This document shows, piece by piece, positions 36,872 to 62,271 of a stretch of DNA of 64,000 bases. The DNA comes from Dioscorea cayenensis subsp. rotundata. Taxonomy: Eukaryota; Streptophyta; Magnoliopsida; Dioscoreales; Dioscoreaceae. Position numbers and translations under genes: made by a program. How positions within the stretch are numbered: position 1 is the stretch's first letter; every line of letters begins with the position of its first letter. The notes under the pieces were generated by a model. That model was given only the letters and a program-made list of their open reading frames with translations. It was not told where the DNA came from and did no database searches. The stretch is from NCBI RefSeq assembly GCF_009730915.1, contig NC_052488.1:21694305-21758304 (forward strand). The letters are read 5' to 3'.

Positions 36872-36896
36872 TTAGGGTTAGGGTTAGGGTTAGGGT
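36872..36896 (-). promoter_or_regulatory. TTAGGG x4 tract (telo-box type) in the EXO70B leader
   Basis: Four tandem TTAGGG units on the plus strand, i.e. CCCTAA on the coding strand, about 75 bp before the start codon. Short CCCTAA tracts in plant leaders act as telo-boxes. The unit is TTAGGG, not the TTTAGGG of most plant telomeres. Confidence 0.6.
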
Positions 36897-38563
36897 ATGG
36901 AAGAGAAGAATGAGTGGTTGGAGGAGGAGAACGCGGATAAAGAGAAACGAAGGAGATACGAAAGAGGAGTGGGGATAGGGACAGCGATGACGGTATCGTG
37001 CTCCGCGGATGAGTTGAAAATTAGACTCAGTTCGTTCGTTGTTTGACGCGTGGAACTAAATATTAACAGGTGAAGTAGATGTTAGGTTGGTCTGGCGGGA
37101 GTAGGTTTGAAGATCGAGAAGCTGGGGAGATCTGACCGTTGAAATGGACGGTGAGGATAAAGGGAAGTCGTAGTAGTACTCGGGGGAAGCGAAAGATAAA
37201 AAGGGTGAGGGCGTGGTGGCGTGTACTATGTGTGGTTGTATAATTCCGTATGACCACGTGGAGCTTTCTGATTGGATTCTTTTTTAAGTTTCACTGTTTA
37301 TGCTCAGCCACCAAACCCCCCAAAATCGGATGATAAATATATAATTTCACCCAATCTATTGGCAATGACTGTTGAATCTACCCTTTTAGTTGTTATGGAG
37401 AATTTAAAAATTTCCTTAAAAAAAAAAGAAGAAAATTATAAATCTAAGAATTCAAACCATATGAATACACATGCATTTTGAGTATGTAGTGAATACCTCT
37501 GTGTGAGTAATCAATCACTCAAGTTTTTTTTCTCATCATCTATTTTAAACTCACTTGTATTTTTTTAATTGGACATTCTTCCTAGTTTCGCATCAGAGTT
37601 TTTAAAATTATGAAGAATTTTAAGATAATATTATGTATAAAAAATAAATAATTAAACAACTTCTATAATAAAAACTATTATATATTTTAAGTTTCAAAAA
37701 TTTATAGTCATTTAATGTGCAATTAAAATTTTTTAATTATTATTATTATAAGTGATATAAATAAAAATTTAAATGCAATAAAAAAATAATAATTTATTTC
37801 GTGAATCACTTTAGGAGTAGATTATACATTTACTTTAATAATATATATATAGATGTATAGATTTTTCTTTGTCATTGCTACTCAACCTCTTAATTATATA
37901 GTAAATATAAAATAATAAAAAATAAATATATAGGAAAATTTTGAAGAAATACTTCAATATAAGAGTTAGATAAGTACAATGACGAGAAGAATGAACATGT
38001 GTAGAGACAACAAAGGAGAAGAGCAATTTTGGTATTATATGAATTAAAAAAATTTATTTGATATTTACAGGAGCCAAAAGTTCTTTTCCTCCAAATATAA
38101 ATGTAATTGATGTTGTTTTTTGAGTGTAGAAAAATTTAGATATATAAATTATATATATATATATATATATATTGTAAATTATGTACATTTACCGACATGT
38201 ATGTATTTAATTTAATTTAATCTATGTGACTTAAAGGTCTTCCGTAGACCAAGGATGAAGACCAAATGAATTTTTTGGCCGACAAAAGAGAAGATGGCCC
38301 TGCATGCTTGTTACATTTTTATGACTTTTTCTACAAAATATTAAGTTTATGCATTGAACTTCTTTGAAAGTGTGATCGTGAAGTTATTGATACATGATTG
38401 TGAAGTTATTAATACATTAGGATTCATTTTTAGAACAATTCCAGTAGTACATCATGTGAAAAAACCTTGAATGTTTGACTTTTAGGACTAGCAAATCAAA
38501 TATGGTGCAAAAGTCTTCTCCCACTTAAATCATATGCATTTTGTTAATAATAATTAAACCAAA
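36897..38563. other. EXO70B promoter and AT-rich spacer
   Basis: 36897-37260 is GC-moderate promoter sequence. 37260-38563 is AT-rich, with an (AT)n run at 38147-38172, and no gene. Confidence 0.45.
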
Positions 38564-38572
38564 AAGAAAATA
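38564..38572. repeat. left 9-bp target-site duplication of the MULE
   Basis: AAGAAAATA, identical to 48200-48208. Nine bases is the standard duplication made by Mutator-like transposases. Confidence 0.85.
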
Positions 38573-39199
38573 GTGGAAATTGTTAAAAACCCCTAAATTT
38601 GCCATATTGTCAAAAAAACCCCCATAATTTTTCAATCCCCAAAACCCCCTTCTTTTTACACTCCATGATCTTGCATGAAGTCGTAGTGCAGTCCCATTTC
38701 GATGGTGTAAGAGGAGTTGGGTTAGGTTGAGTCAGGGTGGGGGGTTTCTTAGAGCTACTGACCCATTTGAGCCGTTCATTGTCTTCTCTCAACTCGCGTC
38801 TCCAACCATTTTTGCACATCCTCCTCAGAAAATTCGACTTTTTCCCTCGCCACCGTGTCTCGAAGGAGAAGTCCCGCAAGTATTCGACGATTTCATCGGT
38901 TTGCAATCTAAGGTATTGATTATGGTTTTATGTTAACTATTCTGTTACAAAGAAACATTTTTCGGTTTTGTTGTGTGATTTTGATTTTATTGGAAGACAT
39001 TGAAGCCTGCAGGGGGATTTATCGGCCGGGGTTTTGTTAGTTTGCAGGGAGATTTCTCGGCTAGGGTTTTGTTTTGTTTTACATTTTCGTATGTGTACAC
39101 GATCAAAATAGTTTTTCGATTGTTGTGATTTGTGTAATGTTTATAATGTGCGTTTCCCCTTTCAATTGATATGGTTGCAGTTGTACAAATGAGGTCTCC

Positions 39200-39350
39200 G
39201 TTTAAAGAATGAGCTTTTACCGTTTAAGTTTTGTCGTCTCCGTTTAAATATTGACATCCCTATTTAATAATATAGGTCTCTATTTAACAAGTGATATCAA
39301 TGTTTAAGAATTGAGAGTTTACCGTTTAACAACTTATATTTCCGTTTAAC
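39200..39350 (+). repeat. GTTTAA phased array A
   Basis: Eight cores ([G/A]TTTAA) start at 39200, 39222, 39242, 39262, 39282, 39302, 39324 and 39344, steps of 20-22 bp. The core is often preceded by YCC/ACC and followed by A or C; the rest of each unit is not conserved. It lies directly upstream of the PMD-like gene on the same strand. Confidence 0.85.
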
Positions 39351-39393
39351 AATTTGTGAATACGACTGGCTGAATGTGTTGTTATTGTCGCAG

Positions 39394-40179
39394 GCTTGTG
39401 ATTATAGCGGTCAATCTAGTTAATGGGCGATGCTACTTGACACCGGTAGTGGAGACTGTGGCTGAATTGAAAGTTCACATGATCCCTCGACACTGGGAGA
39501 TCATCCGAAGGACACCGTTTGCAACATTCACTGAGTTGGAAGCTGTATTCCAAGAGCGGGCCCTTCTTGATTCTCTGTTGCAAAGGTACGACAGCCGCAC
39601 CAATAAATTCAGGATCGGGGAAAGCATGCTGACTTTCAGGCTTGAAGATGTGGCCCTTATTCTTGGTTTGTGTTGCGATGGAGATGCAGTCGTGTTTCAG
39701 AATAAGAAAACACACTCAGCTTTCCAAGAGAGATGTTTATCCAAAAAATACGAGAGACACAGAGACTCCATCAGGAGCACTCTTCAGCAACTCGTTGGAC
39801 AGAGGGGAGAAGAAGAAAATTTTGCGAAACTACTGATGGTGTACCTTATGGGTACAATCCTCTTCCCAAATACCTCCTACTCTATTCCTAACTGGATCGT
39901 TGATTATGTCGATGATCTACCTGGCATGGGGCGATACGCATGGGCGCAGGCGACGCACAAGTGGCTTATGGAGGACATTCCACAAGCAACCGCTCGAGTG
40001 CAAGCTAGATGCGAGGGAAGAAGACCAACACAGGGTATATCAAGGGTTGCACGGTCGCGCTTAACATCTGGTTTTACAAGCTGACCGGAACCGGAAAGAA
40101 AGTCTGTTTCTGCAAGATAACAAGCTACGATAGAAACCAGTTTGTCATCTCTCGAAGGAAAAGAGATAATAAATCATGA
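39394..40179 (+). pseudogene. plant mobile domain / DUF1985-like protein of the MULE
   Basis: The frame shows ELKVHMIPRHWEIIRRTPFA, LLDSLLQRYDSRTNKFRIGE, LTFRLEDVALILGLCCDGDA, LLMVYLMGTILFPNTSYS and YAWAQATHKWLMEDIP. This is the PMD-type fold found in Ulp1-carrying MULEs of monocots and also in host MAIL/MAIN proteins. A single base appears to be missing at about 40031-40035, after which YIKGCTVALNIWFYKLTG continues in another frame to the stop at 40179. The first exon boundary is not clear; an acceptor (TCGCAG) at 39388-39393 would give the start used. Role in transposition is unknown. Confidence 0.75.
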
Positions 40180-40186
40180 ACAATGT

Positions 40187-40356
40187 GTTTAACAGTAGAC
40201 GTTAATGTTTAAACATATTATTTACCGTTTAACTTTGTTCATTTACAGTTTAAAAAGTATTCTTTAATGTTTAAAACTCTTGTTCTCTGTTTACGTTTAT
40301 GCTATAATGTTTAAATATATAAGTTCAATGTTTAACTATAGTTTTTATTGTTTAAA
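40187..40356 (+). repeat. GTTTAA phased array B
   Basis: Nine cores start at 40187, 40207, 40227, 40248, 40269, 40289 (GTTTAC), 40309, 40330 and 40350: steps of 20 or 21 without exception. It fills the gap between the PMD-like gene and the next frame. Confidence 0.88.
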
Positions 40357-40409
40357 CTAAATGATTTCGCTAAATTGTTTGGTTTACACATGTTAGTTTC
40401 ATAAGCTGG

Positions 40410-41475
40410 TTCCGGCGAATGTTGATGAAGATATATTTGTTCGGGCCAACTGTCAATTCGATACTATTGCTCCGGAACCACTTGCTCGAAGGCAAGATGA
40501 GAGGGCAACCTCTTCCGTGCGCGCTCGACGCCGGAGAAGCCCTCCCCTACCCCGCCAAATTGCAACACCCCCACCGACGACGACATCAACAGTCCCCCCG
40601 ACCGTGGCAGCGCCCCCAACGGCACTAGGCAAGGATGTCACTGCAACTCTTCTGCAGGCTTGCCAGATATTGATGACCGAGTTCCCTCGGCTTGTCGCTC
40701 GGATTGAGGCATTGAAAGGCCGATCACAATCGACTGCGTCGTCCCTCCGAACAAATGAAGCACCCGGGGCAGACGCGGCGTCGGATTTCGACGACGACGA
40801 CATCATTGGGGAGGTCATTCAAAAAGGCCTCATTCGAAGAGGCTTGCGAAAAAGAGGAAAACAATAATGCATCCGTCTCCACCGCCGGCTGATGATGAAA
40901 CAATAGCAGCACCATCGGCGCCTAATGGTGTTACCGTTGATGACATGGCCGTCACAGTGGAGGAGATCGCAGATGATGTTGCCATTGCCGCGGTTGATAA
41001 GATCAATGACTCTGTCATGAACCCGGTGGAACGGGCAGCTGACAGTGCGACATCAAAGATGTACACAATCCCTGAAGAACAAGAACCAGCTAACATTGTG
41101 TCTCCCATTGATGTTGTTGTCGTGACCACGGTTGAGAAGGTCATTGACTCTATTGTCAACAAAATTATAGTCACGGTGGAACCAACGGCTGATAGTGCCG
41201 CATCGAAGGCAGACACAATCCCACAACAACAAGAAGCATGTAAGGATATGTCTCCGCTTGATGCTTCCGTCGTGCCGCATCGAAGGTAGATGATGCTGGT
41301 GCTAAACACCGACAACCGTCAACAATAGTGCCGCATGATGATCCCAAAACAGCTGTTGACGAGGGTCAAGGGAATGCCGCCGAAATGACGACGAGAGAGA
41401 AGATCAATGCCAATAAAAAATTAGAAGAAGTTCGGAAAGTCTTTATTCCGAAGAAGAGAAAATACGTTGGCTAAT
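40410..41475 (+). pseudogene. acidic, Val/Thr-rich linker gene of the MULE with 50-residue internal repeats
   Basis: 40410-40867 reads through a basic-Pro stretch (RRRRSPPLPRQIATPPPTT), a helical part (TATLLQACQILMTEFPRLVA) and an acidic end (SDFDDDDIIGEVIQKGLIRR). 40867-41289 is Val/Asp/Ser-rich, with a 150-bp (50-codon) tandem repeat: ADSATSKMYTIPEEQE and ADSAASKADTIPQQQE. 41290-41475 ends in a basic KKRKYVG. No domain recognised. In related MULEs the region between PMD and Ulp1 parts is poorly conserved like this. Frames change at least once, so it is broken or unspliced. Confidence 0.5.
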
Positions 41476-41561
41476 CGCGCCTCAACAAGTATGAACAGGA
41501 GTTGATAAGGATCTTCCTCAACTGCCTTATGGACAAGTAAGTTTGAAGTTTTTATGGTATT

Positions 41562-41751
41562 GTTTAAACTATTACTTGTTACCCTTTAAGTTATATATTG
41601 AACGTTTAACTATTCCAGATAGAATTTAAACTATTATATTTTACCATTTAATTTATATAGTAACCATTAAAATATTCGACATAGAATTTAAACGGTTGAT
41701 GTATCAGTTAAATATTTACAATATTGTTTACGTATCTTTGTTACCGTTTAA
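41562..41751 (+). repeat. GTTTAA phased array C
   Basis: Ten cores start at 41562, 41584, 41604, 41624, 41646, 41666, 41686, 41707, 41726 and 41746. Steps are 19-22. It lies where an intron before the Ulp1 domain is expected. Confidence 0.85.
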
Positions 41752-42513
41752 CCGCAACACTGTCGTGTGGAAAAATGATTCTGTCAGCCTCACACGGTCC
41801 AGGTTATTCGATCTGCTTAAGGGGAAGAAGATGGTCGCAGACGATGTGATGGACGCTTTCGTATGTATAATCCAAAATTCGCTGGCGATAGTGCCATATC
41901 GTTATAAGAAGCGTGCCTCCATCACATGACCACTGGCGCTGTTTATGTCAATGCAGGAAGACGCACATGATACCACTATGACTATGATCGGAGATGCCGC
42001 GCGCAACTTGCATGATGTTGAAATTGTCATCCTCCGGATAATTATGAATGACCACTTCCATGTCGTCGTCCTTGACAATGACAAACAAGAATACATGCAT
42101 TATTTTTCATGCCAAAGCAAGGAATATGATAAAGACGCGCTAGACATGGTAAGTGCTTTAATAATTTGTGTTTGAGTAATAGTATTTGGTAAATAACCGG
42201 TATTCTAATATCAACTTGTATACCTCCACAGTGGAACCTATTTGACCTTTGTATCGATATGGAGTTCGGCGAGTCGACGACCGCAAAGTACCCACTTGTT
42301 CATGACATTGAAACCCCACGACAAAAACAAAGAAGTGTCGACTGCGTCGTCTATGTGATGCGGTTTATCGAACAATTACTCGCAGATGAGAAGCTACGGC
42401 TACCGCAGACAGACGTCCCTTATCTGCGATTAAAGTATGTTTCCCGCATACTTAAAGAGGGGAGGGCAGCCGGCATCACTGTCAAAGGGGAGTGTTCGAA
42501 AGCGGGTTCATAG
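41752..42513 (+). pseudogene. Ulp1/C48 SUMO-protease-like domain of the MULE
   Basis: The frame gives WKNDSVSLTRSRLFDLLKGK, then IVILRIIMNDHFHVVVLDND (catalytic His in DHFH), and after an intron (donor GTAAGT at about 42150, acceptor CCACAG at about 42231) PRQKQRSVDCVVYVMRFIEQ (oxyanion Gln and catalytic Cys). The Gly that normally follows the Cys (DCG) is Val. Ulp1-type proteases cleave SUMO; Kaonashi-type MULEs carry such domains. A TGA lies in frame after KKRASIT at about 41927, so the gene is broken unless an intron removes it. Confidence 0.75.
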
Positions 42514-42639
42514 AATACGTTGTCTTAGTTTCAAATGTAAACCAGTTTAAATTCAATTCATTGTTTTCGAAGAACATGACAAATTTTGTCAATGTAAATT
42601 TATATGTATCTATATTTATGTACTTGACTCTTTTTTTAA

Positions 42640-42860
42640 CCTTCCAGTATCATTGTTTAACTTGCACTTTCATTGTTTAATTTTAATTTTAATTGTTTAA
42701 CTATCAATGTCATTGTTTAAATATCCATGTTACAGCTTTAAGAAGAACTAGTCGAGTTGTAAAAAAATAACTATTTAACGTTTAAAATAATAATGTCTCT
42801 GTTTAAATACATGTGTTAACTCGTAAGAATAAGGTTTTTCTCTGTTTAAAAAAATGAAAA
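42640..42860 (+). repeat. GTTTAA phased array D
   Basis: Cores at 42655, 42675, 42695 and 42715 are exactly 20 bp apart, followed by looser copies at 42736, 42781 and 42800 and beyond. It lies downstream of the Ulp1 gene on its sense strand, next to the convergent transposase gene. Confidence 0.8.
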
Positions 42861-43504
42861 AGTTGGCACACAATTAAGTTTGTTTCTTTTTTAAAAAAAT
42901 CACTGCTTTTACAATGGCTAGTCGGTGATGCTTTCATCAGAAGATCTGCGATTGTGACTCAGAGCCGTGGCAGTGCAGCGCAACGTAACTTCATGGACCT
43001 CAAAGGCTTGTGACTCGATCCTCTTTCGCCTAGAATGCCCGTGTTGCCTTCTCGTTACAGGTCATGCGACGCAGCTTCACGATTTCCGTCCATAGGCTTG
43101 TCATCGTCGGATATGGGGAATATAGCTTCCTTATACGCTAGTTTGTAATTGTCGACGGTGAAGTAGCCGCTAATAAATCAATGAACGTTGGTGTCTGTCT
43201 GCATTATTGCAGCGCAAAGCGTGTTTGCATGGGATACCATAAACTTGCCACTTGCGACATGAGCATGTTCTGATGGCAAGATCTACAGAGTAGCTGCACT
43301 AGTCAATCACTTCATAACGATCATCGATATAACAACCAACACGAAGATTTTGGCTATCCTCCACAAGTATCTCCACCTTCGAATGTATGTTCGGGCATAA
43401 GTAGGTCTCCCATTTGTTCGGTTGCTCACGGCGGTTGCATAACATGCGCATTAACTTGAACCTGTACAGCGTACAACACAAATCTCAGACAAGGTTAAGC
43501 GAAG

Positions 43505-43580
43505 ACATTGATATTTAAACATAAACACTCTTTATTAAACAATATTATCATAAATTAAACAATGATATAGATGGTTAAAC
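43505..43580 (-). repeat. GTTTAA phased array E (minus strand)
   Basis: Plus-strand TTAAAC copies end at 43520, 43540, 43560 and 43580, exactly 20 bp apart. The motif is GTTTAA on the transposase sense strand and lies in a probable intron. Confidence 0.85.
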
Positions 43581-44939
43581 GCAGAGAAATATATTTGAAT
43601 ATTTATAAACTATTTTAAAGGATAATACGAATTCTTAAATGAAAATGAACATTCGAATACCTTATGGAGTCGACCATCTTCGTTACCGGCAAATGCCGAG
43701 CTTCTTTAATCCAAACATTGAACGACTCCGCGACATTGGAATACATCTCACCCCAACGTTCACCTCTGAATAGATAATTCGACCAATGTGACATATCCAA
43801 TATATTAATAAACTAGTGATGGGCTTCGGGTGATGTGGCCTGCAGTTCATTCACGGTATCATCGAAATATTTAGCCGTGGATGCCCACGCAATACGAAAG
43901 TATATAGACCAGCACTCCTCTCTCAATGCCTTCCCTAGTCTGACGTTGGCTTTCATGAAATTGACCTCCAAGTGTCGAAGACAGTATGCTTGTGGGGAAG
44001 AAGGGAAGACTCTCGCAATAGCGTTCACAAGGCCCTTGGACCTGTCTGAGACGAATGTAATTATTTTATGATAATCTTCTTCCTCGTATAAAGCATCACT
44101 TAACTTGGATATGAACCAAGTCCAATTGGCATTGGTCTCGTTATCGACAATACCGAAGGCGACGTGGAAGAAACCATTGTTTTCATCTTTGCCTGTAGCA
44201 CCCAGTAGAGTACCCCAATACTTTCCAAGGAGGTGGGTACCATCGACAAACAGCAGCGGCATGCAAGCCTTCTTGAATTCGACAATACACGCTCTGAAAG
44301 AAAAAAATGCACGTTTAAATCGCTCACCGTCTCTTTACACAATCGCAATACTGCCGGGGTTTATCTCAACAACCTTATCCACGTACCAAAGCAAGAAATC
44401 ATAGTTGGAGATGTCGCTGCCGTCGAGCACCACACGGGCATGCTCTTTTCCTAACCAAGCCTGCTTGTATGGAATGTGGACACCATGATCCCGCAACATG
44501 TCCTTCTGATTGTCGATGGCTTTGTACAAGGGTCGGTCTTTGAGTTTCAGAATCACCCGTGCGCTTACCCATTTTTTGGACGCTTTCGGGTGTGAGGTCG
44601 ATCCCACTCCACCACCGCATGTGTGTGACCGATTCATTGTCTTTATTCTGAAAGTATTTTTATTATTTTCTTTTGATGTATGAAGGCGCCATTGACAACC
44701 AATGGCAGCGCATTCCACAGTCACCCGGTGTTTCTCGTTCTTTATGAATTTGAAGTCAAAATTCCGTTTGATTGCAAAATTTCGAATTGCGACCCTGAAA
44801 TGTTCAGTGCCTTCAAAACATTATCCGATATCCAACGACAATACTTCAGAATGATCTGACGAGGAAGGAAGGCATCCCACACCGTCAGGTTCGCCATAGG
44901 GTTGACCGGGAGCGCTCACAGAATCCGAATTTCTGCCAA

Positions 44940-45120
44940 CACTTCAGTTTAAACGAAACCATCCATAAGTTAAACAGAGGCATAATGTGCTTAAATGATA
45001 AAATCATAATTTAAACATTAAGTCAAAGAGTTACACGATGAAGATAAAATTTAATTGCAATCAAAATATATTTAAACAGAGCATGTTAAACTTAAACCGT
45101 AATGAACTTATACAACTAGA
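44940..45120 (-). repeat. GTTTAA phased array F (minus strand)
   Basis: Plus-strand TTAAAC or close variants begin at about 44949, 44970, 44991, 45011, 45031, 45051 and 45072, steps of 20-21. It separates the N-terminal and DNA-binding exons of the transposase. Confidence 0.82.
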
Positions 45121-45679
45121 TAAACATTAAAGAGAATAATCTTACAACGAGAAAAACTCGTTTTCAGTAGGATTCGACAATGCCACATCGTCTTTCTCCA
45201 CAACAAGATCGACTACAGAGCATTTGAAGATCGAGTGAACGTGACACATCCGCTGGAAGTCGACATCATTTTCTATTGGACAAGTCGTTTTATACCCATC
45301 GGGTGTGATAAACTTCACCCTCACACAGGAAACATTGAGACCCCATCGCTCACATATCTCAGCTAACACCGACTCCCAAGAAGTCAGCGCCATGAACATT
45401 AGCACTCTTCCCTCCCCGTTGTATCTAGCAATACTACAAAAACTATCCATAATATAACTACTGAACTCAAATTGAACAAACCAAATGAGAAGACGAAGAA
45501 GAAGAAGAAGTAGATGATGTAAAGAGCCTTCTAAATTGTGTTTCACAAAAAGTACGCAACTATATGCATAAAGTCAGACATGATGTGATTGGGCAGTATT
45601 TTTCCCACCATTTTAAAGGGCAAAAAAGGTATTTTATTACATGGACCCATTTGAAGTGACCAATAAGGGTTAATCCCTA

Positions 45680-46640
45680 GAGACAATCATTACTGGCTCC
45701 TTGGCTCGTAGTTCTTCTTCGTTTTCCACCATTGTCGCTTTCCACCAGTGCGGTTTTCCACCATTGTCTCGAAGTTTTTCTTCGCTGGTAAGGACGATGC
45801 TACAGTGTGAAGTCCTTGCAAGCGACCGGTTGACTGCAAGCGAGAAGCGGCCGGAAGTAAGCAAGTGACGATAGAAGGCAGCTTGTCATCGCTCAAAGGA
45901 AAGTACTCCACTTATCATTATTCTCTCTGTTTAAATATCAATCTTTAATGTTTAACAAATATGATATAGTGTTTAACATATTGGTTCACTATTTAAAATC
46001 ATTTTATATAGTTTAAAAAAATATGTAAACCGTTTAAATATTATCATTTCACTATTTAACAATATATGTTATTGTTTAAATTGAATGTTTTTACTGATAT
46101 TGTGTTCACTGACAGAGCCTCCATGAAGAGAACACTTGAGCAGCTTGCTTGTTCACTATTTAAAATAATTTTTAACTGTCGTTTAAACCAATATGTAAAC
46201 CGTTTAAATATTTTGATTTAACTGTTTTAAAATATATATGTGATTGTTTAAATTCAATGTTTTCCACGACATCGTGTTGAAGATGGATATTTTTCCAAAA
46301 CATTATGTTACAGGCATTCCATCAATCCTCTTGGGTATCTCATGGGTCTCTGTTTAAACGTCAACCTTTTTACGTTTAAACAATTATATATATTCTTTAA
46401 ACTATAGGTTCACTGTTTAAATAATTTGTATATCGTTTAAACATAAACCGTTGTCACTGTTTACACATATTTATTTTTTGTTTAAACACTGTTGTCACTG
46501 TTTAAGTAGTAAGGCGATTTTGTTTAATATTTTGTTTGTTTACAATGCCCTTTTTTTGTTTCTAAAAATGTTTAAATATCAAAAGTTGACACTCAAATAA
46601 CTTTGTTTCATTTATAATATTTAAACATTTACAATGTCTT
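45680..46640 (+). repeat. GTTTAA phased arrays G and H in the region between the two transposase copies
   Basis: Cores at 45929, 45950, 45971, 45991, 46011, 46032, 46054 and 46074 (steps 20-22), then a second run from about 46152 to 46620 with more gaps. The motif is on the plus strand. 45680-45900 has no array and resembles a GC-richer leader; it may be the rest of a second left arm. Confidence 0.75.
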
Positions 46641-46918
46641 CACGGACATCAGAAACTTGCGAGTCTATCCTAGTTCATCTATTAATATTTTGGCTTTCCT
46701 CAACAAGTATCTGTACCTTCGAATGCTCACGGCGGTTGCATAACATGCGCATCAACTTGAACCTATACAATGTAGAACACGAACAGTTAAAAAAGGCAGT
46801 TAAACAGTTAAACGAAGACAATAATATTTGCACACTAAGGAAATTTTTTTAAATGCTGAGAACAATTCTCAAGTGATAAATATCAATTTCGTTTTAAAGT
46901 ATGTGTCATGGTCACCCT

Positions 46919-47092
46919 CTCCGGAGAATCCTCCGCAATCAAGCAATGCGTGAAAACTTTCTTTTCCTGATTAAGTCAAAATACCCCGCTTACTTGCTTG
47001 CCCATCATCCTCCGCATTCAGGCAATTAGGCGGGCTTTCTGACTTGAACAGAAAAAGAAAGTTTAACTTGTTGCGTGATCGATTCTCCAGAA
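46919..47092. repeat. imperfect foldback (inverted repeat) with arms of about 75-80 bp
   Basis: Left arm 46919-47002 and the inverted right arm 47018-47092 share GGAGAATC, CGCAA, AACTTTCTTTT, AAGTCA and CCCGC in the same order, with small gaps. The loop is about 15-25 nt. It lies inside the second mudrA copy. It could be a small foldback element or the seed of a hairpin RNA. Confidence 0.6.
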
Positions 47093-47394
47093 GAGGACGA
47101 TCACGATAAATCCTTCAAACGAATATCCTGGACACATGAAGATGAAACTCATCCGAGAAGAAGCAGAGGAAGAGAAGGAGGGGGTGTTCAGGGGAAGTGG
47201 TCTTCCTTCTCATTTATGGTGTGAAGTCCGTAAGCCGTTTGACGCTTCAGATTCGAGAAAAAAAATGAAAACGCACGAGGGACCGAGCTTTTCTCATTAA
47301 CAAGATAGAATTTAATGCCGTCATTAATTCTTGTGCACGGGATACCATAAATTTGCCATTGGCCACCTGGCAATACTTTAGTTTAAACGGAACA

Positions 47395-47575
47395 GAAAAT
47401 ATTTTAAGCAGAGACATAAAATTTTTAAATGATACATTACAATGTTAAACGGTAATGCAAATAGTTAAATACTGACAAATAAATTAAACGAAGAAGATAA
47501 TTGTTAAATATAAAAATAATGTATTTAAACAGAGACAGACGACGTTAAACGGTAATCAACTTATACAACTAGATA
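47395..47575 (-). repeat. GTTTAA phased array I (minus strand)
   Basis: Plus-strand TTAAAC/TTAAAT copies recur about every 20 bp between the SWIM-like and N-terminal parts of the second transposase copy, in the same relative place as array F. Confidence 0.75.
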
Positions 47576-48199
47576 AACATAAAAGAGAATAATCTTACAA
47601 CGAGAAAAACTCATTTTCAGTAGAATTCGACAATGCCACAACGTTTGTCTCGACAAGATCGACAATGGCACATCCGCTGGAAGTCAACCTCGTTTTCTAT
47701 TGGACAAACCGTTTTATATCCATCGGGTGTGATAAACTTCACCCTGACACGGGAAACATCAAGACCCAATCGCTCACGTATCTTACCTAAGCTAACACCA
47801 ATTCCCAAGGAGTCAGCGCCGTGAACAATAGCCCTCGAATCGAAGAAATTCTAACTTTATTAAGAAACTGGCAAAATTCAAATATAACAAACCAAATGAG
47901 GAGAATAAGAAAAAGAAGAATAAAAAGATGTGATAAGCCTTCTAAACTTTGTTTGACAAAAGGCACCAAAAAAACCAGCAAAATTATATGTACAAAGATT
48001 GGACATGATGTGAGTGACCGTCTTTTCCCGCCATTTTCAAGGGCAAAAATGAATATCATAACATGGTCGCATTTCAAGTGAACGGTAGGGGATAAAAGGG
48101 AAGTTAAACAATAATGGAAGGGTTGTTCGGGGTTTGCCAAAATTGGAGGGGCTGTTTGGGAATTTTTGAAATTCATGAGGGGTAAACAATAATTTTCCC

Positions 48200-48208
48200 A
48201 AGAAAATA
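48200..48208. repeat. right 9-bp target-site duplication of the MULE
   Basis: AAGAAAATA, identical to 38564-38572. Confidence 0.85.
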
Positions 48209-48479
48209 TCATCAAATTAGAAGGAAAAAAAAATTTATATTTTATTATTCAAGCCTCTATCTCATGGTCCAAAACTATGGAATTACATGCCCCATCATAC
48301 CTTATACAATTTGCATATAATTCCTCAAAGTTGGATTATCCTAGGGTCCCAACTCTGGAATTACATGTCCCATTATACATTATACAATTTGCATATAATT
48401 CCTCCCAGTTGGATTGGGAGAGGTTCCATGTTAGCTTAAATTTAATTTAGGGTAATAATTTAAATTTAATTCAAAAAAA

Positions 48480-53281: not shown

Positions 53282-56089
53282 TTCATCAAATCAGAAGGAA
53301 AAAATAACATTTTATTATTCAAGCTTCTATCTTATGGTCCAAACTCTGGAATCACATGTCCCATCATATGTTATGCAATTTGCATATAATTCCTCCAAGT
53401 TGGATTGAGATAGGTTCCATGTTAGTTTACTTTTAATTTAGGGCAATAATTTAAATTGAATTCAGAATAATAAAATTATGTTTTTTTTTTCATGCAACAA
53501 TTAGAAGATTCACCAAAAACCTCTTGGTCTATCAGCACAATATTCTTTTGCATAGAGTGTATGTTTGAGCAAAGATTTAAAATTGAACTCCAAAACATAC
53601 GCAAGAGAAGAGCACATATGTCATGAGCTATTAACTCCATATCTTCCATATTTTATGCACATCTCTTATTTATTTTAAATGAAGCCCACTTGTCACTTAT
53701 TTATTAAAAAAAAAGACAATTAGACGATTCACAAATTAAAAATAAAAAAGGCTCCTAATCAACACAAAACAACTATATGCTCAAATTTTCCTCTTTCTTA
53801 AAATAATTATAATTTTATATACTTTCTCACACCAATAATGAGAGCATTTTGCATTGAATTGTCTATCTTTTCATCTATTTTGGTTATTGAACCCTTCTAA
53901 TTGGGTAATAAGAGTGGCTTAACTTTCAACTTAAATAAAGAGAGGCTTAACTCCACAATCCACCTTCTCTGACTTGATAATTAGTATTTCATTTTTTTTT
54001 ATCTCATAATTTGAGAGTTTGAATTCTATAAATTCATAATCAAGCTTTTAAATAGTGACTTGGTGATTTTATCAATATAGATTTTCTCAATGCATATAAT
54101 TTCCATATGAAGTACATTTCAACATGAGAAAACAAATATCCAAAAGTGACAAATTCAAACAATTTAGGTTAACAAACTATAAATAATAAAAAAAATCTAT
54201 CTTAAAAACTAAAAACTGATGAGGTTGTTGCCTATTTGTAAATAAAAAAATAATAATACCCGAGAATAAAGTTAATTTCTCCCTCCATTCTTCTCTTTCC
54301 CACGATCTTTGGACTGATTTAAGTATCGAAGTGCTTGTCTCAAATTGAAGGTCATCAATACATATTCTTTTAAAGAAAAGTGACTAAACTATAAATTATG
54401 TGAATACATCATTTGATCATAGATTTGCTTTTATTGTTCAAGTTTCCATCTTATATATTTCTCAAAGTGTGGAATTACATATTCCAGTCCACCATGTACT
54501 GTGTAGTTTGCCCATAAACCATCTTAGTAGGATGAATTGCATAAAAGATCATAAAACTAGATACATTATTACAAAACAATGTACTTATGGTGTTATAAAG
54601 AGGTCCAATCTCAAACAAATTGAGAATATGGTCCATAAATATTGTGGCCTGGTTTTGTTTGTGTATTATAAAGTTTTTTTTTTCAATTTTCTTTTCCTTT
54701 ATTTTTTTTTTTAAGAATAGAAGAAAACACCCTTTCACTTCCCATAAAATATAAATGCACATTTATGTTAGTTTTGCTTTTGTAATGAATTAGAGGGATT
54801 AATGCAGAATTTAAATGTGAACAAAAAATTTCACAAAATTCTTTTTAAAGAAAGGATTTTTTTTTTTTCTTGAAAAAGTGGATAAACCACTTACTTGAAA
54901 AGTAAAATTCTAATTCTTTGTTTTGAATTGGAAAAAGAATAAGTAATCAACCTTCTTGTGAAAGGTAGTCTCTCATAAAAGTTTGTATCTAAGATATAGA
55001 ATTTAATCATCGTTATTACTATATATATATACACCACTTATGCATGATGAAAATTTATTGATAGTTCCACATACTTGAAAAAATACCTTAAAACTCAAAT
55101 ATACAATATGGATTATTTTTCATAAATAACCGTGAGAGGTAAAAATAATTTATTTTTGTAAAAAGATGGATAAACTACTTAAATTAAATTAAAAAAGAGT
55201 ATAAGAGAGACCATAACAACAAGAACAAAATAGAAAAATACAACGAAAGGTGAAAAGGGTTTATTAATATTGTTGAAATGTCCCCTTCTATTTTTGTTTG
55301 ATTTTTAAGATAGTTTAATGAGTTATGATCATGATTCGGAGTAGATAAATAGTTTTTAATCATATAGATTTAAATATTTTTATGCCAACATTTATGTGAT
55401 TGTTCCTTGGATCTATTTTTTTAATTTTCTGTGATTATATAAATATTAATTAAATGGAGGTTGTAGAGAAGAGCCACTTTATAAAGCTCCAATATATTTG
55501 GCAAGCCCCAAAAATCTAAGGGACATATTAATTAGCAGTAATGTGAAAATATTATCACACGTTAGGCAATAATTTGGAAAGTTTACCACATTTGGTATTG
55601 TAATAGTGGTAATATTGATGGTAATATAAAATTACTAATAATAATAAGGCTTTTGCTTAGGCAGCCCAATAATTTTTAATAGTAAAGAATTTGAAAGTCA
55701 GACACCCAAGTATCTATCAAATTAATATTAACATTGAATATGGGAGATTTTTAGCAGCAATTATATTATTAAAAATACTTGGGGGAAATAGAGAAGCATC
55801 ATGCACAAAATCATTTGGTTTGGAATAATTTTGGAAATTATCTTTTGGTTGATATTACAAGTGATATAGGCCGGTAATCCTCAATGGACTTGGGGACTTT
55901 ATTATGCTTAGGAATCAATGTGATAAAAGTGTGACTTCATTCTTAAAGAAATTAATTAGCAGCTTTATGGAAATGGTCAACAACAGCAAAAATCAAAATT
56001 CTAACAGTGGGTTAAAACATATGAAGGAAATCAATATGAACGCCATCAGGTCTATGATTTGTAGTCGCTAAAGCAGGTGAAAAAAACAA

Positions 56090-57509: not shown

Positions 57510-60500
57510 TCAGATATACAGTCTATGAGGGATGTGCTGAATCATTTGCCATTCAAGAGATCCCCCTTGCCGACACCGTTCAGTCAAGCTTCGTTCACAT
57601 TGTATCAAGTACAACTTTTTAAGTGAGGATGGAAGGTTGCCCTGCGGCAGTGATTGGATCTTTGGACATGCTTTAATGATCAATTGGTTCAATAAAGGAA
57701 GACGAGGCAACCAAGCAGGCAGAGTTTCCAGATCTTCGCAACAATCTATTTCCATCTTCTGTAGGTTTGGCAGCGGGAATCCGTACTCTGTTATCACCTC
57801 CTCCGCCTCTGTACACCAGGATCTGAATTTGTGACACAATCTAATTGTCAACTCGTTCAATAAAGGAAGACGAGGCAACCAAGCAGGAAGAGTTTCCAGA
57901 TCTTGGCAAGAATCTATTTCCATATATTGTAGGTTTGGCAGCGGGAGTCCGTCCTCTATTATCTCCTCCTCCTCCATACCCCAAGATCTGAATTTGGGAC
58001 AGTCTATAATGATCAATTCCTTTAATAAAAGAAGACGAGGCAACCAAGCAGGCAGAATTTTCATATCTTCACAAGAATATATTTCCATCTTCTGTAGGTT
58101 TGGTAGTAGGAGTCCATCCTCTGTTATCTTCTTCTCCTCCATACCCCAGGATCTGAATTTGGGACACAATCTAATTGTCAACTCGTTCAATAAAGGAAGA
58201 CGAGGCAACCAAGCAGGCAGAGTTTCCAGATCTTCACACCAACTTATATCCATATGTTGTAGGTTTGGCAGCGGGAGTCTGTCCTCTGTTATCTCCTCCT
58301 CCTCCATACCCCAGGATCTGAATTTGGGACAATCCATAATGATCAATTCCTTTAATAAAGGAAGACGAGGCAACCAAGCAGGCAAAGTTTCCAGATCTTC
58401 GCAAGAATATATTTCCATCTTCTGTAGGTTTGGCAGCGGGAGTCCGTCTTCTATTATCTCTTCCTCCTCCATACCCCATGATTTGAATTTGGGACACATA
58501 CTAATTGTCAACTCGTTCAATAAAGGAAGATGAGGCAACCAAGCAGGTAGAGTTTCCAAATCACCGCACACCCTTATTTCCATACGTTGTAGGTTTGGCA
58601 GCAGGAGTCTGTCCTCTGTTATCTCTTCCTCCTCCGTACCCCAAGATCTAAATTTGGGACAGAAGCTAATGATCAATTTCTCCAACAAGGGAAGACGAGG
58701 CAACCAAGCAGGCAGAGTTTCCAAATCTTTGCAAGAATATATTTCCATACGCTGTAGGTTTGGCAGACAGAGTGCATCCTCTGTTATCTCCTCCTTCGTA
58801 TCCCATGATCTGAATTTGGGACAAAAGCTAATGATCAATTTCTCTAACAAGGGAAGACGAGGCAACCAAGCAGGCAGAGTTTCCAGATCGAAGCAAGAAT
58901 ATATTTCCATACGCTGTAGGTTTGGCAGACAGAGTCCATCCTGTGTTATCTCCTCCTCCGTACCCCAGGATCTGAATTTGGGACAATTATTAATGATCAA
59001 TTGGTTCAATAAAGGAAGACGAGGCAACCAAGCAGGCAGAGTTTCCAGAACATTGCAATATATTATTTCCATAAGCTGTAGTTTTGGCAGCGGGAGTCCA
59101 TCCTCTATTATCTCCTCTTCAGTACCCCAGTATTTGAATTTGCGGCAGTTAGAAATAGACAATTGTTTCAGAGAAGGGAGGGCTTGTAAACCCTCCAATG
59201 ATATCAGCTCATTACAAGCAAAAATTTTTAAATTCACGAGTGCGTGCAGAGTGGCCATGATTTTTGCAGGAAAGGTTTGAATCTTTGCCCCATGCAAGAC
59301 CAAATCAGACAGAGAAGAGACGCCATTGAGACATTGATCAAACACCACACGACAATTTTTAATTTTTAGGTACTTCAGTGCTGAAAACAAGGGCAGATGT
59401 AATCCATTCACTTCACTCTCCTTAATTGTGAGGCTGGTAAACTTGGGAAAGTGGGTGTGATTTTGTCCCGTCACTGATGATGATGATGACGACATGTCCT
59501 CAAAAGATAGTGTTGCATGCCATGCATCAAGGGACGTCAGGGATGGATACATCTCAATCACGGAATAATCAACCTCAATTGTCATGTTCTCAATGCTTGA
59601 TAACTCCAGTGATTTAAGGGAGGGTAACAACCCAAGTGCTGCAGGTAGACGTGCCCATTTTCTGCATCCATCTAACTCTATTTTTTCTAGTCTCTGAAGT
59701 TCAGGTGTCATAAGCCAGGTTGGCGATTTGGAACCCATATATCCAGCAATTCTCAAATATTTTAAGTTAGGATGAGGTTGAAGAGCTTCAAGTGTTTGTT
59801 CTTGGAAATCTTGCTTGCAATCATCAAATGCATCTCCCCATCTTAATTGTAACTGCTTGATGTGACGTTTTTCCTTCAAATATTTGGCCTTCATCATTTC
59901 TTCTGTTTTGCCAATGTTCTCCAAGCCTCCAATCAAAAGTTCACCTCTCAGTTCATTCATATTCCTCAATTGTGCAATCTGGTAACCTCCTTCTCTATTT
60001 ACTTGATATATTACATAATAAGATGTTTGAAGGGACCTTATCAAACTGAAGTCAGGCATGCAAAATCTTCGAAGGTTTATGAGATTATGAAATCGATTGG
60101 GCAATCTAGGTGGTGGACACATTAATTTCAATACTCTCAACAAATAAAGCGTGCATAGTGATTCTGGTATTGATTCGATGCTAGTTCCCACCAAATCCAG
60201 ATATTGCAAGTGTTTAAGATGAGCAATATTATCTGAGAGTTTTTGCACATTAGTACGAGAGATGACCAACACTCGAATCCTTTTAAATGCTTCGTGTTTG
60301 AGGATGTCATGTATGTCACCGGCTCCATATAATATGAGTGTGCGCAAGTTATCAGTTTTGCACACGAACTTAACATCAGAAAACCTATGCACACATAAAT
60401 GGCAAACATCTTTTGGGATTTCTTCATCTTTTCGACCCTCATAAATATAAGTTTCTCCATGAGAAACTGATTGAGCTAAATCATGCAATAAGTCATGCAT

Positions 60501-62271
60501 TTTGAAGCCTTCAATAACTTTTACAAATTCAAAACTGTTTTCAAATTCAATAACTTTTTCAAAGAAACACCTTGCTTCTAGTTCGTGCCAATACTCTTCT
60601 CCTATATCTTCCAATGTCTTTGAACTGCCTTTAATTTCTGGTATATAACCATGGGCTATCCACATGTCAATAACATTGAACATATCATACACAAAATCTT
60701 TAGGAAACACCGAACAAAAGGTAAAGCATAACTGAAGAGGATGGGGTAGATGATAGTAACTCAAGGCAAGCGCAGACATAACACCATGTGCATCAGTTTC
60801 TAATTTCCATAAATCACTTTCCAATATGTCCTTCCAATGTTCTTCAGTTAAACAGCTTCCTAAAAGTCTTCCAACTGTCTTTGCTGCCAATGGTGACCCT
60901 TTGAGCTTTCCCACTATCTGCTTTCCTATAGCATGTAGTTCAGGAGAATTGTCAGGATTCTTATCGGCAAAGGCATATTTCACGAAAAGTGACCAGTTGT
61001 CTTTATCAGATAACCCTTTCAAAGTAATTTGATTCTGCCCATCAGCCAGAACTCCTAATACTTCAGGATCTCTGCAAGTGACAATGAGTTTAATAGCCTC
61101 TGCTTGCGCACATCGGAGAAAGTTGAGGAGCTCTCGCCATTCATCAGACCAAACATCATCTAGCACCAATAAAAATTTCTTCCCTGTTACCTGCCTTTTG
61201 ATTTCCCTCTCAAGAACATCACAGCTGGTGGTGATGGTTGAGCTGCTAGCTTCGCCAATGCATAATGAATCTAATATTTCTTTGGTGATTCTGAGCCTAT
61301 TGAAGTAATCTGATACACATATCCATGCTTTCCTCTCAAAATGATATGCTATTTCTGTGTTGTTGAAGACAAACTGAGCTAGAGTGGTTTTGCCAATACC
61401 CCCCATCCCAACTATTGGTACAACAGAAACATTACCACTTTCTTTTGGCTCTTTAAGCAACTTGATCAACTGTTGTTTTTCATGATCCCGGCCATATATC
61501 TTGCTTTCAGATGGTGATGATGTGGTAACACGTTTGTTTTCTGCTGCTTGATGTTGCCCAGATGAATCACAACCGCCCTTCGAAGCATCCACCATAATTT
61601 CAAACCTCATGTCTGAATCAATGCGATTAATTTGTTCTGTAATAGTCCTCATTTTATTCACTATATCATCTGCAATATAAAATTCTAAAGTTTCATTTCC
61701 ATAAGTTAAACCTGGCTTGATTTATCCAGCATGCAAATATATATAGAGGGAGAGAAACATGAAAAATACACTGGATAAATTAAAACAAATATAAAGGCAA
61801 CAAACCTGTTGACTCGGATGAAGAAAGCCGGCGTCTTTTGTCACTTGATTGTCCGGTTGTCCAAGGAATCCAAGACCCAAGTTGTGGTGTTGTAGATGGG
61901 TTGTTGTCAGCAGCTTCATCCTGCAGGTTGATCTCCTCCACCTTTCGCTGCAGCTCCATGTACTCCAAATCATCTTTCAAGTCTTTAATCATGTTACTCA
62001 CATCTCTGAGTTTGTTGTTGATATGGATCAGCCTCATATTTTGTTTATCTCGTTTATGCAACCTTCTGACTTCACTTTGTATAATCTCGAGCTTCAGATT
62101 GGCCTCTGCGAAGGCTTTCCTCTCATTAACCAGTTGTTGAAGCTTATCAACATGACTGGAGGATGATGGCTGGTCTCTAGAAAGATGCTCAAATAAAGAG
62201 TCAAGCAATTTGTTCAGAACAAACTGAGGCAATATCGGTGCAAGAATGGCTCCTGCTATGCCTAAAACCAT
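57510..62271 (-). CDS. CC-NB-ARC-LRR (CNL) disease-resistance protein, two exons
   Basis: Exon 1 is 62271-61806 and exon 2 is 61669-57510; the junction (ACA G|AT GAT) keeps the frame and gives 1541 residues. The start MVLGIAGAILAPILPQF is the usual Rx-N/CC opening. NB-ARC motifs: P-loop GMGGIGKTTLA, RNBS-A FERKAWICVSDYF, kinase 2 LLVLDDVW, RNBS-B LIVTCRD, GLPL as GSPLAA, RNBS-D CFTFCSVFPKD and MHD in MHDLLHDLAQ. All are intact. About 25 LRRs follow. The last 500 residues are nine tandem double-LRR repeats. Such proteins are cytosolic sensors of pathogen effectors that form resistosomes on activation. An upstream in-frame ATG exists, but the one chosen matches CNL starts. The frame is open throughout. 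Confidence 0.95.
57640..59135 (-). repeat. nine in-frame tandem repeats (162-168 bp) in the NLR LRR region
   Basis: The plus-strand word GGCAACCAAGCAGG recurs at 57706, 57874, 58039, 58204, 58369, 58534, 58699, 58861 and 59023 (with small changes). Steps are 168, 165, 165, 165, 165, 165, 162 and 162. Each unit encodes LPNLQ.MEI..C.DLETLPAW, LPRLPLL..L.I..CPKFRSWG and an acidic EEEEI.EDGL linker. Size changes are whole codons within the Glu run. Confidence 0.93.

Follow-up and report, generated by a model that had tools for sequence, protein, structure and literature searches.

Two-turn arrays of a GTTTAA-centred motif in a KI-MULE/VANDAL-type element of Dioscorea, and their probable recognition by a VANC-like protein

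What could hold a short DNA word at steps of two helical turns while the bases between its copies are free to change? This question is raised by a 64,000-nt window (the whole stretch of DNA that was analyzed) on contig NC_052488.1 of Dioscorea cayenensis subsp. rotundata, whose genome measures 584 Mb. The window carries a whole MULE of KI-MULE/VANDAL type at 38573..48199 (9.6 kb; no strand assigned), which is flanked by a perfect 9-bp target-site duplication, AAGAAAATA. A preliminary description of the window had noted phased GTTTAA arrays in this element and had suggested a selected DNA-binding lattice, phased bending or an RNA-level signal. Our analysis confirmed the phased arrays, and we consider it likely that they act in cis as sites bound by a VANC-like protein that the element itself encodes (PMD/DUF1985 plus a C-terminal Ulp1-type domain), as part of an anti-silencing system.

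Autocorrelation was analyzed over 38560-48210 against 300 dinucleotide shuffles. GTTTAA pairs 19-23 bp apart numbered 22 on the plus strand and 8 on the minus strand, compared with 0.01 in the shuffles (maximum 1), and [GA]TTTAA pairs numbered 33 (+) and 19 (-), compared with 0.09 (maximum 2). Across the 54,349 bp outside the element, 43 GTTTAA sites formed 0 pairs at these distances, and 159 [GA]TTTAA sites formed 2. When both strands were counted, so that palindromic cores may count twice, 70 phased [GA]TTTAA sites fell in the element, compared with 4 across the 54 kb outside it. None of these 70 lay in the 3,674 bp of exons, as assigned from open reading frames and homology, indicating that the arrays occupy introns and gaps, as had been described.

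On the sense strand only, we observed 70 phased TTTAA units in 11 arrays, of which ten (A-I and K) are clear and one (J, 2 units) is doubtful; at least nine had been described earlier. Successive units were separated by 20 bp (29 steps), 21 bp (16), 22 bp (7), and 19 and 23 bp (1 each), with longer steps of 40 bp (2), 44, 45 and 61 bp (1 each). Array A (39195..39350, +) has 8 cores in an inferred intron upstream of the PMD exon, and array B (40180..40360, +) has 8 phased cores and one slot without an intact core. This slot, at 40.2 kb, corrects the step list given earlier for array B, in which a 40-bp step had seemingly been counted as two 20-bp steps. Array C (41555..41755, +) contains 5 tightly phased cores and two more at 40 and 60 bp steps, while array D (42628..42852, +) is located 3' of the Ulp1 stop codon. 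Array E (43512..43645, -) has 6 cores; array F (44946..45103, -) is homologous to array K (47380..47556, -), which has 8 cores, 7 of them at 19-21 bp steps. Array H (46153..46253, +) duplicates part of array G (45924..46080, +) and is followed by array I (46346..46530, +) and by the doubtful array J (46798..46818, -), which has few cores.

Next, the 70 sense-strand units were aligned on their cores. Information was found from about -6 to +5, as T-Y-W-Y-Y-[G/A]-TTTAA-[A/C], and was at most 0.10 bit at -14 to -8 and +8 to +11. Each unit thus consists of a conserved motif of ~12 bp and a free filler of ~8 bp, whereas a core of 6-8 bp with 12-14 bp of free sequence had been proposed; the freedom of the filler was correctly seen, but its length was overestimated. 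Filler identity on the left/right side was 0.396/0.370 for adjacent units and 0.407/0.372 for distant units of the same array, values little higher than those between different arrays (0.365 left, 0.330 right). Adjacency within an array thus brings no greater similarity of filler, and the free filler is real. At positions -2,-1 of the 70 units, the main dinucleotides were TG (30), CG (19), TA (6) and CA (4), and the -2,-1 positions varied often across copies (0.170, 0.110), as would be expected if the CG of the motif were methylated and decaying.

As the preliminary description had proposed, the same 20-bp phase was then sought in related elements of this genome. A genome search with the PMD exon gave 5801 first-look candidates; 150 of these were scored, and each proved to be a match. 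Phased sites were present in 30/30 returned PMD-matched loci, window copy included. The 29 paralogs (78-87% protein identity) had been picked by protein match only, not by arrays. Their sense-strand [GA]TTTAA pairs numbered 197/57/55 at 20/21/22 bp, 1 at 10 bp and 0 at 30 bp, and distances clustered at 20-22, 40-42 and 60-62 bp. The best period was 20.5 bp, with a coherence of 0.89 over 1252 pairs. In the whole genome, GTTTAA triplets at 19-22 bp numbered 7880+8196 (16,076), compared with 14+19 (33) for the reversed pattern, in counts that may skip very common words and that covered steps of 9-12, 19-22 and 30-33 bp. No excess was observed for triplets at 9-12 bp (3+6 vs 17+12 reversed) or at 30-33 bp (9+25 vs 22+13 reversed) in the same genome.

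These spacings bear on the possibility that phased bending, nucleosome exclusion or host-factor sites keep the element open with no need for an element-encoded protein. AT-richness and a two-turn spacing would suit such a function; however, one- and three-turn spacings, which would be equally in phase, are without excess, and what is conserved is a specific sequence motif of ~12 bp. Furthermore, TTTAA interrupts A-tract bending, and on this basis the phased bending suggested in the preliminary description was not supported. We count bending as rejected and regard the whole group of explanations as quite improbable.

Conservation of the core between copies, also raised earlier as a check, was analyzed in 30 copies. 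TTTAA mismatch to the consensus was 0.039 in array A and 0.014 in array B, compared with 0.125 and 0.114 in the filler and 0.086 and 0.068 in the flank, and column permutation gave p ~2e-4 for each array. In a second test, cores were defined in the window copy alone and A/T bases were compared, to avoid picking conserved columns; array B again showed strong constraint, with 0.014 in the core, 0.097 in the filler and 0.108 in the flank. Duplicated arrays, in a comparison where the aligner may lean on cores, showed ungapped identities of 46/54 in the core and 64/104 in the filler for F/K (429/533 outside the array), 34/36 and 50/61 for G/H, and 39/42 and 57/100 for B/G. Array indels among the 30 copies included lengths of 20, 21 and 40 bp besides others, indicating that whole units can be gained or lost with phase kept.

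Such unit-sized indels are also what would be seen if the arrays were neutral minisatellites that share a core by chance. To examine arrays elsewhere, we used 16 ten-kb stretches from the first 3.02 Mb of C1 that had been picked because they contain arrays. In two of them, L013 and L023, some arrays are fairly homogeneous tandem repeats: neighbouring filler was alike at 0.61 and 0.57, compared with 0.30-0.47 in the other 14 loci. The family therefore contains both young repeat arrays and old lattices with free filler, and the statement that the filler is unlike that of a minisatellite applies to the window arrays but not to L013 and L023, where it is far more conserved. Nevertheless, core and spacing persist where the filler is randomised. 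Across copies, the core has diverged less than either filler or flank, and in the duplicated arrays it is also better preserved than the filler. We count the minisatellite explanation as rejected and give it very little probability.

We then analyzed the genes of the window element. The PMD/DUF1985 exon of a VANC-like gene lies at 39374..40084 (+) and was identified by Pfam profile search; DUF1985 scored 35.6 bits in the genome-wide search (cut-off 35.1) and 34.3 bits, just below, in the Pfam scan of the window. Ulp1/C48 protease exons at 41756..42513 (+) scored 19.9 bits against a C48 cut-off of 20.7, a weak match to a remnant, and Ulp1/C48 was matched by tblastn in 9/16 array loci. On the opposite strand, MULE transposase exons at 43813..44820 (-) contain the Pfam domains MULE (75.5 bits) and DBD_Tnp_Mut (66.5 bits), and an N-terminal transposase exon at 45142..45573 (-) is PB1-like by eye and without a Pfam match. 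The Ulp1 gene (+) is thus opposed to a mudrA-type transposase (-), which is the KI-MULE layout. Judged by its sequence, the element is of KI-MULE/VANDAL anatomy, its VANC-like PMD/DUF1985-Ulp1 gene and its MULE transposase lying in opposite orientation.

The window copy looks decayed. The end of its PMD exon appears frame-shifted, as in some other copies, and most of the listed copies exit the frame after residue ~222, while copies in which this exon is free of stops also occur; in addition, an inferred intron donor GT is altered in the window copy and in one other of 24 readable copies (6/30 were not read). At the element's termini, 14 of the first 21 bases agree between the ends in a by-eye comparison, consistent with short or degenerate terminal inverted repeats, and a self-comparison of the window did not find an inverted match between the two ends. 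Two relatives, L018 and L011, extend over the whole of the window element, and their ends match its ends. Perfect 9-bp target-site duplications flank the window element, L011 and L018, each with its own, as well as L013 and L023, although those of L018 and L023 carry less weight, as the sequence there is simple and A/T-rich. The self-comparison also revealed an internal duplication (44933-45673 / 47367-48095, 71%) and an inverted repeat (46888-47123, 67%) inside the element.

Among the 16 array loci, 11 match the element's proteins, and a PMD match was found in 10 (exon identity 36-86%), which associates the arrays with DUF1985-Ulp1 MULEs. Of these 10 loci, 4 have phased sites in the 600 bp that precede the PMD exon, and 8 have them 600-1300 bp past the exon start. 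The strand of the arrays had been described as switching with gene direction. This was correct in the window; elsewhere it was observed only for the PMD gene, with 125 phased sites sense and 29 antisense in 8 loci, and not for the transposase gene, with 9 sense and 20 antisense in 7 loci (antisense more frequent in 4, sense in 1, equal in 1 and no sites in 1). Therefore, the strand rule belongs to the PMD gene and not to all genes.

Strand also bears on a possible signal at the RNA level, for example intronic branch points or splicing enhancers of the element. The location of arrays in inferred introns, on the sense strand of PMD, would agree with such a signal. In contrast, the transposase genes show an antisense excess in 4/7, array D lies past the Ulp1 stop codon, and dense arrays are found without genes. 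This last point comes from L013 and L023, two gene-less array loci that are elements with the same termini and 9-bp duplications, at L013 4123-5853 (1731 bp) and L023 4100-6522 (2423 bp). Their phased sites lie mostly on a single strand (26 vs 2 in L013, 34 vs 4 in L023), and neither locus showed a match to the element's proteins. In both, fairly homogeneous arrays surround a middle part that is GC-rich and resembles a gene (a by-eye observation in L013), which gives a Pack-MULE-like look. The branch-point or other RNA-level signal suggested earlier is thus disfavoured; we count it as rejected and find it barely credible.

Retention of a short repeated motif in gene-less elements, near both ends in L013, would also be seen if the arrays bound the transposase, or an accessory transposition protein, and shaped the transposition complex. 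Subterminal motif clusters of Ac and En/Spm shape the transposition complex in this way, and the motif part CCGTTT reads AAACGG, the Ac motif, on the complementary strand, likely by coincidence. However, the outermost arrays of the window element start 622 and 643 bp inside its ends and the others lie at least 1.4 kb from the nearer end, several of these being located within the PMD gene or next to it and not near the termini. We consider transposition sites unlikely.

Of the readings suggested in the preliminary description, the selected DNA-binding lattice is best supported, by the core constraint, the ~20.5-bp lock in 29 paralogs and the arrays in two gene-less elements. Recognition by the VANC-like protein would operate as follows. 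Arrays would arise through duplication of 20-21-bp units, after which the filler would drift while binding preserved core and spacing. The protein would bind the ~12-bp TYWYY[G/A]TTTAA[A/C] motif every two helical turns in introns and gene gaps, so that a row of molecules, possibly packed cooperatively, would probably form along one face of the DNA. The bound protein would strip DNA methylation and other silent marks, and the element and its gene-less relatives would thereby be expressed and mobile. The arrays bear on a question in transposon anti-silencing: by what means does a single protein pick out kilobases of the element that encodes it and leave the host untouched? Free filler and a locked pitch reveal which bases and which spacing matter, and the arrays provide a ready target for binding tests outside Arabidopsis as well as a DNA signature by which such systems could be recognised in other plant genomes.

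Other words were also analyzed for phasing in the genome. GTATTA, tested as a guess from the published VANC21 motif YAGTATTAY, showed triplets at 20-bp spacing (104+112 vs 12+8 reversed) and no excess at 30-33 bp (10+8 vs 16+15). GTATTA arrays (C4:4713308-4713433, C3:18795349-18795474 and others) have a core of about TTTCCT[G/A]TGTATTA[T/C] with free filler; this core was drawn from 29 distinct units in 16 typed strings, and its hexamer is common with Arabidopsis VANC21. GTATAA triplets were weakly phased (20+21 vs 10+6), whereas the control words GATTTA (2+4 vs 10+11 reversed) and GTTATA (1+3 vs 6+5 reversed) showed no phasing in the genome. Proximity was tested in seven sets as clusters within 10 kb of 150 listed DUF1985 matches. 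In one of these sets, 3/29 GTATAA clusters were near a listed match (rough null 0.14, p 3e-4), with arrays at 20-bp steps 1.8-6.3 kb from DUF1985 matches at C10:19752496-19754834, C14:14910527-14914401 and C17:9937728. The GTATAA arrays are a possible third motif system. For GTATTA places at 30-33 bp, 1/12 clusters was near a listed match (p 0.06), and a by-eye comparison of GTATTA places with 150 listed MULE transposases gave nothing clear. More than one motif with the same pitch is present in the genome, and only GTTTAA, and tentatively GTATAA, is tied to DUF1985 elements. As a tentative extension, to which we give rather less than even credence, VANC-like proteins may read a contiguous two-turn lattice as a filament; separate systems of GTTTAA, GTATTA and GTATAA (all GTWTWA) might then share a 20-bp pitch fixed by the protein while the motif changes, and thousands of copies, some gene-less, might parasitise one protein.

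Several observations weigh against recognition by the VANC-like protein. With window-defined cores and A/T bases, array A showed modest constraint (core 0.065, filler 0.101, flank 0.081), and the 29 paralogs are not independent because they are close relatives. In the array loci, 5/16 are without a matching gene; in 6 of the 10 PMD-matched loci, the 600 bp upstream of the exon are devoid of phased sites, and two of these six (L010, L021) also lack them just downstream. A structure model of the PMD exon from 16 sequences reached a pLDDT of 32, too low to show a DNA-binding fold; a PDB sequence search returned 2 matches with E above 1, taken as noise. The motif here, TYWYYGTTTAAM, is not the Arabidopsis motif of VANC21 or VANC6. 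Phased GTATTA was not found in the window, whose core is GTTTAA and hence not the motif of the VANC21 subfamily. The VANC6 core AGTTGT showed no phasing in the genome (3+3 vs 7+13), and of the 57 GTATTA clusters, which cover the first 100 of the 216 places, none lay close to any of the 150 DUF1985 matches listed.

Elsewhere in the window, a 1403-aa open frame at 57513-61721 (-) encodes an NB-ARC/LRR resistance protein, in whose LRR part an in-frame 165-bp (55-aa) DNA tandem repeat runs in ~9 copies at 57674-59142. A short repeat at 48258-48400, just beyond the 3' end of the element, is tandem there and occurs again 5 kb away at 53283-53406. About four copies of TTAGGG, the animal-type telomere unit, lie at 36872-36896; the run is short and perhaps due to chance.

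Finally, the arrays were compared with known systems. Reportedly, Sasaki 2022 (EMBO J), on eudicot anti-silencing, describes VANC systems whose diversification involves the domains DUF1985, DUF287 and Ulp1, and motifs that act through sequence, density and helical periodicity. Novelty is lowered because its abstract reportedly already names helical periodicity. The consulted parts of Hosaka 2017 (PMC5735166) state that VANC21 binds YAGTATTAY in non-coding VANDAL21 DNA of Arabidopsis (gel shift, chromatin immunoprecipitation) with loss of methylation, that VANC6 motifs differ from those of VANC21, and that the motif repeats, which evolve via tandem repeats, are located upstream of VANA and within the introns of VANC and VANB. 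These VANC-bound short-motif arrays of VANDAL MULEs show that the preliminary description, which knew of no account of such arrays, was wrong as to kind. RNA-directed methylation re-silences non-coding regions, according to an excerpt of PMC10398659, and a passage of a review (PMC13317346, citing Sasaki 2022) states that VANC elements carrying Ulp1 recognise motifs of their own kind. KAONASHI/KI-MULE elements are described, in the sections consulted of PMC2528002 and PMC13317346, as having an Ulp1 gene reversed to mudrA and a high copy number.

In our literature search, no paper was found on GTTTAA as a transposon tandem motif; VANDAL or VANC combined with periodicity gave nothing related, and DUF1985 combined with transposon motif gave the Arabidopsis work and one unrelated screen. 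The features of a VANC system that are present here are a DUF1985 protein in the element, a short motif repeated in non-coding DNA, and the same motif in the non-autonomous L013 and L023. Like VANDAL21 and VANDAL6 with VANC21 and VANC6, as far as the parts consulted describe them, the element is a MULE with a DUF1985 gene and a short non-coding motif in introns and upstream of genes, with evolution through tandem repeats, and the GTATTA core of VANC21 also occurs in 20-bp arrays of this genome. Unlike in those systems, the filler here is largely free and the spacing a strict 20.5 bp, while binding is predicted; the words "spacing" and "interval" are absent from the text of PMC5735166. The opposition of the Ulp1 gene to mudrA and the high copy number are shared with KI-MULEs, whose descriptions in the consulted sections of PMC2528002 and PMC13317346 do not mention the motif or phased arrays. 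The kind of system is therefore already known, and what is new, as far as the literature was searched, is the motif together with a two-turn lattice of free filler, quantified here, and the scale of that lattice.

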